Origin: Diphasiastrum complanatum
Lineage: Eukaryota > Streptophyta > Lycopodiopsida > Lycopodiales > Lycopodiaceae
Direction: 5' to 3'
Assembly: GCA_029204225.1 (NCBI GenBank)
Contig: CM055101.1
Coordinates: 57,306,806-57,370,805, forward strand
Length of the DNA: 64,000 nucleotides
Part shown: positions 30,171 to 38,290 of the stretch, one piece after another
Numbering within the stretch: position 1 is the first letter of the stretch
Layout of the letters: every line of letters begins with the position of its first letter
The notes under the pieces: model-generated
Databases searched by the model: none
What the model saw: the letters and a program-made list of their open reading frames with translations, nothing else
What the model was told of the DNA's origin: nothing
Position numbers and translations under genes: made by a program

Positions 30171-30640
30171 TTAGTACACTAAGTTTTTTGGAGAGATTGT
30201 GAGATTCTACACACACTTTTGGCTACTTTCTCTCTCTACCCGAGAGCTCATGCATATATTTTCTCTCTATACGAGAGCAAGCCTTTTCTATACTTAGAGA
30301 GAGCGACTTAGAAAAAACTAGTAGGTACATTCATGAAAAATATATATACACCTCGAAGGGGAAGTTTAAGAAAATGTAAGCTCAAACAAGAGCGAAGCTT
30401 GCACTTAAACTAAGATTAATCTAGATACTGGCATTAAAAATAAAGGTGCAAAAACTATGATGATGTCAACGGGAGTCTCCCAACTGACTGCAACAGATCA
30501 GAAAAGTGAAGAGGTGGTGAATCGGCTAATGTAAGGGAGATGAGACATAGCAGACCCAGCCACCGTCACCCGTTGCTGGATTGATAGGGCATGAGCACGT
30601 TGTCATTAGAGAAACTTAGAGGCCAAAGAGGGCCTTTGAA
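28645..30640. other. Stretch without assigned genes; (GA)n microsatellite at 30099-30168
   Basis: Two kilobases without a recognisable coding frame or terminal repeats. The only clear structure is about 35 GA units at 30099-30168. Confidence 0.5.
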
Positions 30641-30654
30641 AAAGATGTTTTTTT

Positions 30655-31058
30655 ATTTTTTCTCTGGTTCCAAGCGCAAGATAGTCAACGGAACTTAGAT
30701 CGTGGAAAAGGCGCGCTTGAAATCAATATCCAGATAAAAATAAAAAATTTGCGTCAAAATCCATGCCAAAAATGACCTATTTATAAAAAACATTTGCACA
30801 TGTGTAAGAGTTTCAAAATGACACGTGTTGCCACATGATTGGTCATTAATATTCCGCGGTACAGACAATGATTGATCTGACATCTATCACGTGTAGAATG
30901 ACACGTGTCAAAATCTGATTCGTGCACGTATCCCGACCCGCATGGCCTCATAATTGAGTCATCATTACCAGTACGAACAATCCACGTGGACCAGTTAGAT
31001 TTTGACATGTGTCATCATCCATTTTTTTCACATGTGCAAAAATTTCCTATATATACAC
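30655..31058. promoter_or_regulatory. Bidirectional promoter of the repeated module, copy 1
   Basis: A plus-strand TATA box CTATATATACACCC at about 31047 faces unit A. A minus-strand TATA (complement of CCTATTTATAAAA at about 30777) faces left. Between them are ACACGTGTT (30821), ATCACGTGTA (30888), ACACGTGTCA (30901) and CCACGTGGA (30981), all G-box/ABRE-type CACGTG sites. The same layout stands at 36353-36632. In this copy the left-hand unit C is missing. Confidence 0.6.
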
Positions 31059-31282
31059 CCTTGGAATTTTCATTTTCTTTTGTAGAATTTTCGGTTATGG
31101 ATCCCAATATCGCTCTCAAGCGCGCTCTCTCTTCGCAAAATACTCCACCTTCTCACCGTGCACTCGAGACCAATACTGCTGTGATTCCAATATCGCTTTC
31201 GAGCGCAACTCTCTTTTCTGCACATATTCTCTATCTATCTTGCGCTCGAAACCGATATTTAGTTCTGGTATCAATCTCAACC

Positions 31283-31441
31283 ATGCAGGCCTTACAGGGT
31301 GCTATAGAAGACTTTTTGGCCCAGTTTTTTGAGGATACCTGTCTTTTGGCAATGCATGATAAGCACGTCACCATCATGCCAACAAATTTTCATCATTTTC
31401 ATAAGACTTCGGGATTGTTATTATGGTCTGCATGTGGATAA
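31283..31441 (+). pseudogene. Histone H3-like fold fragment, copy 1
   Basis: The frame reads MQALQGAIEDFLAQFFEDT..., then H-K-VTIMP, aligning with the C-terminal half of the H3 histone fold (helix 2, loop 2, helix 3; H3 has [31 protein letters not shown]). Compared with the copy at 36936-37315, about 300 bp holding the N-terminal tail and first helix are absent. It stands just downstream of the module promoter. Confidence 0.65.
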
Positions 31442-31592
31442 CGCGAGCACCTCAAGAGACTTGCCTCTAAATAGAACAAACTTGCTGACTACTTCTAGGA
31501 GGAAAAAGAAGTAGCCTGAAACCAAAAGGGCTGGATTTTGAAGGCCAGCTGTTTCTCTTCTTCCTTGAGTTATCCCTGCCAAGAGACCTCGC

Positions 31593-36037: not shown

Positions 36038-36059
36038 TTAGACATTCTGAGCAAAAAAA

Positions 36060-36660
36060 ACAAATGTGAAATTTTCAATATTGCACTCAAGCGCAAAATG
36101 TAGGTTAGACAAGAATCTCAAGGCAATGTGCGCTCGAAAGAGATATAAGAACATAGGATATCGGATCCGAGCACGTGTACAAAGATTAGAAAAAAAAAAG
36201 ATGTAAGACGCGCTTGAATGCGATACCAGACTATGCAGTATTGGTTCCAGGCGCAAGATTGTCAACGGAACGTAGACAGTGGAATGGGCGCACTTGAAAT
36301 TGATATCCGGATAAGAAATCAAAAATTTGCGTGAAAATCCACGTAAAAAATGACCTATTTATAAAAAAAATTTGCACGTGTGGAAGAGTTTCAAAAGGAC
36401 ACGTGTTGTCGCATGATTGGTCATTCATATTCCGTCATATAGACAATGAATCTGACGACTATCACGTGCCAAATGACACATGTCAAAATCTGATTCGTGC
36501 ACGTGTCTCGACCCATGTGGCCTCATAATTGAGTCATCATTATCAGTATGAACAATCAATGTGGACCAGTTAGATGCCGACACATGTCATCATCCATTTT
36601 TTGCACACGTGTGAAAATCTCCTATATATACACCCTTGGAATTTTTATTTTTTTTCGTAA
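36060..36660. promoter_or_regulatory. Bidirectional promoter of the repeated module, copy 2
   Basis: A minus-strand TATA (complement of CCTATTTATAAAA at about 36355) faces unit C, and a plus-strand TATA CTATATATACACCC at about 36622 faces unit A. Five CACGTG sites lie between them (near 36376, 36401, 36464, 36499 and 36606). On both outer sides, in the presumed 5' leaders, a motif close to ATATCGCTTTCAAGCGCG recurs at least six times. This arrangement suggests one control region serving two divergent transcripts. Confidence 0.6.
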
Positions 36661-36935
36661 AATTTTTGGTTTTCGCTCCCAATATTACTCTCAAGCGCGC
36701 TCTCTCTTCGCAAAATACTCCACCTTCTCACCGTGCGCTCGAGACCGATATTGTTGTGATTCCAATATCGCTTTCAAGTGCAATTCTTCATATTCTCTAT
36801 CTATCTTGTGCTCGAAACCGATATTCAGTTCTGGTATCGATCTCAAGCGTCTTCTGATCGCAAATTCTTTTTTTTTCATTCCCTGTGCATGGATTCAAAC
36901 TTTTTTTTTCTAATTTATTTATTTTTATTCTAAGA

Positions 36936-37315
36936 ATGATGGCTAGGACCAAATCTACTGCCCGTGTCATAACCATTGTACAGCCATCCCATGCCTGTGT
37001 TCCCCCTGGTACTGGCCGTAGACGTGGTAGAAAGCAGGTCTGGCTGAGGGAGATAAGAGATCAACTGAACTGTTGATCCCTAGGGCTCCTTTCAGCCGAT
37101 CTATCAAGAATGTCACTCTGTCACTTGGGCTAGATGTTCGTTTTGCCGTGACAGCCATGCAGGCCTTACAAGGTGCTATAGAAGACTTTTTGGCCCAGTT
37201 TTTTGAGGATACCTGTCTTTTGGGAATGCATGGTAAGCGTGTCACCATCATGCCAACAGATTCCCATCATTCTCATAAGACTTTGGGATCGTTATTATGG
37301 TCTACATGTGGATAA
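36936..37315 (+). pseudogene. Histone H3/CENH3-like gene, copy 2
   Basis: The N-terminus MARTKSTAR matches the H3 tail, then RRRGRKQVWLREIRDQ matches the GTVALREIR entry of the fold. The core follows: LIPRAPFSR (nearer the CENH3 form LIPxAPF than H3 LIRKLPF), LDVRFAVTAMQALQGA, and FEDTCLLGMHGKRVTIMP (near identical to H3 [18 protein letters not shown]). Spacing from LIP to the end of helix 2 equals canonical H3, without the longer loop 1 of typical CENH3. The K/R-rich tail sites of H3 beyond residue 9 are not conserved. The fold is split over two frames, so the copy looks degraded. A histone of this kind would wrap nucleosomal DNA. It is followed by unit A, possibly as one transcript. Confidence 0.65.
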
Positions 37316-37451
37316 CGCCAACACCTCTAGAGACCTGCCTCTGAATAGAACAAACTTGTCGAGTACCTCTAGGAGGACAAAGAGACAGCCTGAAACCAAG
37401 AAACTTGGATCTCGAAAGCCAGTTGTTTCTCTTCCTCCTTGAGTTATCCCT

Positions 37452-38290
37452 ATGAAGAGACCTCGCATGAGGTTTGAATCAGATGTTGGAGAATCTGATT
37501 CAGACCAAGAATCGCCCTCTCCTCCTCGTGTTATTCGTCTAGCTCCTCAGAAGGTTTCTTCACCGAAAGTGATGATTACCCAAGAGGAGCTCAACAAAAT
37601 AACCGAGAAATCTGTAAATATTATATCTATTTCTCTTTCTGCTCCTATATATAATCTTGTTGTCAAAATTCCATATGATTCCGCTCAAGTTTTTTTTTTA
37701 TTCTGACCATTATAATCAGTACGAGGCCCACTTAGCTAATAAAATTGATCTTCTTGGCAATTATTTTGATTTCTTTCTTCCAGATTCACATAGAAGCTTT
37801 AGATTAGGCCCCAAATTTTGTGCCGAGCTTAAAGATAAAACACCAGAGATTACAGATGTAATAGTAAAAGCCGAAGGATGCTTTTTGTAGGATAGTATTA
37901 GTTCTGATTCTCATGGTGTAGTTTTTGTTGTTAGTCCATTTTTTATGGGAGCAATGAAGACAAAAGAAGCCAATTTTGATAAGGCTGTATATCTCATCGA
38001 ATGCAATCCAGTGGCAAAATTTTATTTGATTCCATATGAGAATAAGTGAGGATTGCTCGTTTGTTTTTGTTGCTGTAATTTGGATTGTTGCAGTCGGCAT
38101 TGCTTTAATAAGTAAGGATTTATTGATATTTGTATTTTGATTGTTGCAGTCGGCATTGGAGCCTGAACATTCTTTCTATAAAGATAAATAAGGAGGGAGC
38201 ATCAAATTTTCTATGTGTAAAAGTAAACTCAGTTGTAATACACATAGAGAATTTGATTTTCTATGTGTAAAAGTAAACTCAGTTGTACTA
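37452..38290 (+). other. Unit A of repeated module, copy 2
   Basis: Near-identical in order to 31593-32330: an acidic start (MRFESDVGESDSDQESPSPP), the unknown domain (DLLGNYFDFFLPDSHRSF, VVFVVSPFFMGAM) and the exon starting LEPEHSFYKDK. It breaks off at about 38290, where an LTR-like block begins. Degraded. Confidence 0.5.

Follow-up and report, generated by a model that had tools for sequence, protein, structure and literature searches.

A repeated gene module in Diphasiastrum complanatum comes from a dispersed DNA transposon that carries a histone H3-like fusion gene

Introduction

DNA transposons carrying a histone H3 gene are already published for fungi, where they are hAT elements, and the plant element described here, which we found through a repeated gene module in a 64,000-nucleotide stretch of the Diphasiastrum complanatum genome (the window; C10:57306806-57370805 of a 1.74-Gb assembly with contigs named C1-C24), differs from them. 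In Pyrenophora tritici-repentis a 5.6-kb hAT element contains a transposase, an H3L gene that is expressed and a functionally uncharacterised open reading frame, ORF (PMC3538342), and 784 mutated H3 copies are reported in hAT elements of Pseudocercospora fijiensis, with 8-bp duplications (PMC6710886). Spy, of the PHIS superfamily, has inverted repeats, makes no target-site duplication (TSD) and inserts within AAATTT (PMC4482050). Fungal DNA transposons encoding TET/JBP carry an epigenetic gene, probably in order to escape silencing (PMC12730594), and the VANDAL elements with their VANC proteins are plant transposons that counter silencing, with an arms race in non-coding regions (PMC10398659). 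None of the titles listed in the literature searches concerned a histone-carrying transposon of plants, Repbase and subscription journals lying outside that search.

Results

A first-pass annotation of the window had noticed a repeated module of three units, A, B and C, and had offered amplified host genes, cargo of a transposon or an old integrated element as its nature. The three units are real, and the module they form is a piece of a DNA transposon scattered through the genome, not a cluster of host genes; a fourth gene, D, and the inverted repeats at the outer edges had been missed. Gene D and the end next to it were traced by walking outward from the C side (L036, L037 and L038; L-labels denote copy or locus stretches). 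A copy that keeps both ends lies at C3:76195959-76204605 (8.6 kb, including a 377-bp insert) and served as the reference on which the other copies were mapped. Read from one end it comprises a terminal inverted repeat (TIR), D in forward, C in reverse, A in forward and B in reverse orientation, and the opposite TIR, with 11-bp inverted repeats, CATTAGAGAAA, common to both ends. Its D-side end reads inward as CATTAGAGAAAATATGGGCCC, and the B-type terminus CATTAGAGAAACTTAGAG was found again at unrelated genomic places.

The copies share these edges throughout the genome, as expected by the first-pass annotation for a mobile element: the pattern of the B-type end (20 fixed bases) has 670 exact sites and a 21-mer of the D-type end 796, and the reversed controls have none. 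On C1 and C2, for which 100 B ends and 89 D ends were listed, 11 pairs of ends within 20 kb of each other face inward, 2 outward and 3 in the same direction, the inward pairs spanning 5.7-14.0 kb. An end lies within 15 kb of 11 of the 18 A matches listed on these two contigs, in 8 of the 11 on the expected side and strand. A six-frame search of the genome with the H3-like ORF at 37031-37315 of the window gave 5666 candidates at first look, the best 150 of which, as scored, lie on 22 contigs of C1-C24 and on smaller contigs. Among the matches listed, 27 of these 150 are followed, 0.4-0.8 kb downstream and in the same orientation, by a match to the C-terminal part of A, and none by one on the opposite strand. 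In the same listing, a D match lies no more than 10 kb from 14 histone matches with which it shares the strand, and from one on the opposite strand; 13 of the 14 D matches lie 3.7-5.8 kb upstream and one at 1.3 kb. D sits 1.1-1.6 kb inside the end at six D-ends picked by eye, and a listed A match was found within 8 kb for 11 of the 36 stretches with C/D. Seventeen of the 145 B matches have a listed A match within 8 kb, and the nearest A is convergent in 16 of the 17, so that, where this could be tested, the units were not found to occur mostly apart from each other. Taken together the matches are spread over C1-C24, with hundreds of element copies dispersed over these contigs.

Neither A nor B had been recognised. 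B has no significant match in the libraries searched; A holds a histone domain. It consists of an H3-like domain followed by about 250 residues without significant match in Pfam, PHROGs, PDB or NCBIfam. The best copy of A, in L033 (C10:22.78 Mb), is an open frame of 397 amino acids matching Pfam Histone (PF00125; 1.5e-23) and H3 in the PDB (1.7e-19), and by these sequence matches its histone fold is of the H3 type. A shares with H3 and CENH3 the fold, the MARTK start (its N-terminus reads MARTKSTA, as in H3) and the blocks LREIRK, STELLI and KRVTIMPKD, but differs from both in a short tail and a long fused C-terminus. Compared with reference sequences, the tail lacks the K9 and K27 contexts of H3, the core is identical at 42 of 83 positions to plant H3.1 and at 39 of 86 to Arabidopsis CENH3, loop 1 has the length of that in H3 and is not longer as in CENH3, and LLIP and KDF resemble CENH3. 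Of 150 places scored for the C-terminal part of A, 6 have it in a stop-free frame of 366-427 amino acids, and two of these frames are 99-100% alike; a search of this tail against the PDB by sequence gave nothing significant.

Among the D matches an open frame of 231 amino acids recurs, and gene D is present at 150 places at least; a frame of 282 amino acids recurs among the B matches, many of them with stops. By sequence, B gave a chance-level match to the MRG15 chromo barrel in the PDB (E 0.3), and neither the first exon of C nor a single exon of D gave anything significant there. Nothing better than E 0.038 (one B piece) was obtained with PHROGs for pieces of A, B and C, and nothing useful with NCBIfam for these and one D piece, so that the library searches made identified no family for B, C, D or the tail of A. 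In the pieces scanned, the profile searches of open segments advised by the first-pass annotation returned the histone in A and no match placing the module in a known transposon family. We infer that D supplies the transposase.

L033 and the C3 copy represent two diverged lineages of the element. Between them the A/C intergenic region (L032 ~8052-8851, L032 being the stretch with the C3 copy and its flank; window 36026-36935) is the most diverged part, with 69-76% identity as compared with 82-94% in A, 84-92% toward the B-side end and 83-90% in C. The D side is 89-94% identical in other copies, apart from a single interval at 55%, which includes sequence that the copies do not share. The same intergenic region shows no identity trough (82-94%) in W2, a window copy of the C3 lineage.

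Selection was assessed by the ratio of non-synonymous to synonymous substitution rates (dN/dS). Comparison of A from L033 with 17 pieces gave 0.25-0.49; by parts, the values between lineages are 0.27-0.50 for the histone domain, 0.38-0.58 for the linker, 0.23-0.32 for the C-terminal part of A and 0.21-0.42 for the exons of C. By these ratios A and C were under purifying selection between the two element lineages before the sampled copies died. Within the C10/C3 lineage the values are 0.72-1.35 for A and 0.45-1.21 for C, as expected after death.

Two tests with joined flanks indicate that the element inserts without TSD. For the copy at C2:45465672-45474192 the joined 30 + 30-nt flanks match all 40 scored places with 59-60 of 60 bases (97-98% identity), the target being of equal length, which leaves a duplication of 0 bp. 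For C1:95189670-95195748 all 40 scored places likewise span the junction, query and target again being of the same length (88-95%); most of these matches cover query positions 1-43, so that the right flank contributes no more than 13-14 bases. The joined C2 flanks read as Copia integrase-like sequence (KVLRSDSGGEYK, which we take to be a Copia integrase motif); when one of the joined flanks was translated into 20 residues, Pfam gave no match. No consistent TSD was found in the flanks of 11 pairs of ends (10 paired ends and the C3 copy), where the best of 160 combinations of length and offset reached an uncorrected z of 3.1. A 2-bp duplication, considered because of GA/GA at the C3 copy, was rejected, as it agrees at only 3 of 11 sites and the empty sites argue against any duplication. 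The insertion point is A^T at 0 of 11 sites and AAA^TTT at 0 of 11.

The window copies are dead, broken and rearranged, and segmental duplication has further multiplied and inverted them. Direct and inverted repeats within the window were detected independently of the mapping on the C3 copy. When the 7.65-kb stretch with the module was compared with the genome, 78 DNA matches were obtained (27 scored candidates of 16515), far above chance; 76 of them, the stretch itself included, lie at C10:56.85-57.62 Mb and 2 at C3:76.197-76.201 Mb. Part of the repetition is recent segmental duplication, since the complete 7.65 kb is present a second time, inverted and with 99% identity, at C10:57474805-57482468. 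Around the window, at C10:56.85-57.62 Mb, pieces of the element lie crowded in either orientation and form a large segmental-duplication array.

Mapping on the C3 copy bears out the arrangement seen by the first-pass annotation, namely A and B converging, the same pair in mirror image, C and A diverging from a common upstream region, and degradation of all copies. All three window copies are incomplete: genes C and D are missing from W1, as is the N-terminal portion of its histone domain, W2 stops inside A, and W3 is split by rearrangement. W1 has a B-type terminus at 30604-30660 (+; CATTAGAGAAACTTAGAG..., an exact 18-mer, with 93% identity over 57 nt to the B-side end of the C3 copy), which in this rearranged copy is fused to the A/C intergenic, upstream region at 30667-31280 (+; reference 4778-4177, 83%). 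Assignment of the terminus at 30604 as D-side end was rejected, its sequence being that of the B-type end. Gene A follows at 31278-33174 (+), with the C-terminal part of the H3-like domain in ORF 30902-31441 (Pfam Histone, 2.2e-8), then the linker, the C-terminal domain of no known family in ORF 31569-32186 and the acidic last exon in ORF 32856-33104, and gene B lies convergent to it at 33177-33998 (-; reference 1832-1021, 90%). W2 extends from 35631 to 38263 on the mapping and consists of C, with its first exon at 35682-36025 (-), the bidirectional A/C intergenic region at 36026-36935 and gene A at 36936-38285 (+), which has stops and indels and an H3-like ORF at 37031-37315 (Pfam Histone, 2.8e-18).

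Both partial copies reported near 47125 and 55762 are real and belong to W3, the former as B exon fragments at 47008-47317 (+), the latter as a short C piece at 55708-55763 (+; reference 5727-5782, 89%). W3 further contains a B-side end region at 48293-48764 (-), in which the terminus, at 48747-48764, is degraded and has 2 mismatches, gene B at 53313-54420 (+; reference 484-697 and from 958; ORF 53428-54222) as mirror image of that in W1, and the 3' part of gene A at 54440-55637 (-; up to reference 3110), positions 53527-55637 being collinear with the same B-A stretch.

L033 is incomplete, a deletion having removed the last exon of A together with the central portion of B. At L033:5068-5727 a separate high-copy repeat, with an open frame containing DDDLGHLFWIGKV, is inserted in gene C; reading L033 from 5068 onward as more of gene C was rejected, as the copies end at 5067 and another repeat begins. 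Beside that repeat lie L033:5733-6000 and L034:1-844, relatives of which sit in B of C10 copies (window 46375-47009). Next to the C3 copy, at L032 ~2497-2916, an ORF resembles a fragment of plastid ndhI, which would suggest nuclear plastid DNA and, like a Copia-type gag fragment in the window, a plant host.

Elements of 377-779 bp with the ends CATTAGAG...CTCTAATG, resembling miniature inverted-repeat transposable elements, occur at 12975-13753 of the window, at L028:8797-9491 and at L037:308-684; for the one inside the C3 copy, L036 offers an empty site that agrees to within 0 or 1 base. These elements may belong to the transposon family as small relatives. The Rfam scan of the window gave no match, and the Pfam scan of its ORFs detected a Copia-type gag fragment. 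Long ORFs at 133-852, 5454-7313, 11613-12592 and 21009-22773 resemble Ty3 and Copia polyprotein fragments, as recognised by eye.

Discussion

The common ends, the hundreds of dispersed copies, the constant gene order and the empty sites lead us to regard the element as probably an unclassified plant TIR DNA transposon that took over an H3 gene and whose central part is the module. Shared TIRs and dispersed copies with empty sites are present, as in other TIR DNA transposons, and a TSD is not. This absence weighs against the reading just given, since cut-and-paste elements other than Spy generally produce a TSD, and further points have to be set on the same side. No Pfam match backs D as the transposase even at E 10. 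D gives no selection signal (dN/dS 0.80, with wrong-frame controls at 0.53 and 0.33), nor does B (0.26-1.27, two values undefined), which was compared only within one dead lineage, in which A and C likewise reach 0.72-1.35 and 0.45-1.21. The 17 comparisons of A mostly involve duplicates of one lineage and amount to essentially one deep split, and codons containing stops were excluded from the dN/dS counts. Finally, the hAT-carried H3 copies of the Pseudocercospora/Cercospora fungal clade are all dead passengers (PMC6710886).

The element has in common with the fungal ones that it is a DNA transposon with inverted repeats, several ORFs, an H3-like gene between the TIRs and up to hundreds of copies (PMC3538342 and PMC6710886). 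It differs from them in its ends, the lack of an 8-bp or any other TSD, its four genes, the fusion of H3 to a long novel tail, the plant host and the selection on A and C; moreover, no Pfam match to hAT transposase domains was found in the pieces scanned, a complete copy not having been scanned base by base. With Spy it shares inverted repeats and the absence of TSD, but insertion within AAATTT was seen at none of the 11 sites, no match to a Harbinger-type transposase was found, and there are four genes including a histone.

A captured H3-like gene and other host fragments might ride along without serving the element, which we consider unlikely. In fungi, hAT transposons are documented to have captured H3, the copies being mutated and dead (PMC6710886), capture is termed well documented in plants (PMC3538342), and the majority of the copies in hand are broken. 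Against mere passengers speak the between-lineage dN/dS of 0.23-0.50 for the histone and C-terminal parts of A and of 0.21-0.42 for C, a four-gene order repeated at many places, and open A frames of 366-427 amino acids at 6 of 150 scored places. The selection on A and C suggests that they serve the element, and of the natures offered by the first-pass annotation the transposon is supported, its genes probably being more than cargo. A rolling-circle element of the Helitron type appears improbable. It would account for the missing TSD at the two empty sites, the B-side end terminates in CTAATG when read outward, and a weak hairpin lies near one end (z -1.5, equalled by 16 of 200 shuffles), but both ends bear inverted repeats, A^T insertion points are found at 0 of 11 sites, and a Rep/helicase match is absent from the pieces scanned with Pfam. 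A Helitron 3' end had been a candidate and was rejected once the opposite inverted end turned up.

Histones occur in some large DNA viruses, and several genes without known kin next to a histone might be what is left of a DNA virus, or of an element like Polinton, that once integrated. The 11-bp inverted repeats, the size of 5.7-14 kb, the lack of any PHROG match better than E 0.038 for pieces of A, B and C and of polymerase or capsid matches in the pieces scanned with Pfam make this origin very improbable. Least credible of all is a cluster of chromatin genes of the host amplified by segmental duplication: the C10 cluster at 56.85-57.62 Mb abounds in copies that are nearly identical and in many cases inverted, one of them with 99% identity, and for this local array the explanation holds, but local duplication does not explain the spread over C1-C24, the common ends and the clean empty sites.

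How the transposon might use its genes can be outlined as a proposal. D would mobilise the element, and the A protein, expressed from the promoter shared with C, would enter or read chromatin. There it could help the element to resist silencing: because its tail keeps the MARTK start and lacks the K9 and K27 contexts, nucleosomes holding A could not bear the usual silencing marks. Judged by the tail composition and by analogy with TET/JBP and VANC, this is the most likely among the functions considered, at slightly less than even chance; alternatively, A might steer the transposase to chromatin. The TET/JBP transposons are likewise DNA transposons with an epigenetic gene, theirs being a dioxygenase. 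VANDALs are Mutator-like; the divergence of the A/C intergenic region, the strongest between the two lineages, resembles theirs, although no homology was found and no duplication is made here. This divergence could reflect a promoter arms race, as proposed for VANDAL non-coding regions, or an exchange of modules. More speculatively, and in our view rather doubtful, the element might represent a new superfamily that integrates bluntly, encodes its own H3 variant without silencing lysines, targets its own DNA by the fused C-terminal domain and packs itself into unmarkable nucleosomes.

A TIR element without target duplication points to a transposition chemistry that is rare in eukaryotes. If a superfamily with its own histone exists, it would mean, together with the fungal hAT cases, that DNA transposons took up H3 several times for a reason. 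Plant transposon silencing acts through histone marks, and if an element encodes an H3-like fusion that is under selection, the nucleosome itself would be where it counters the host. The fungal authors asked whether such H3 genes are selected; hundreds of copies and two diverged lineages of A and C make this question testable in the present element.

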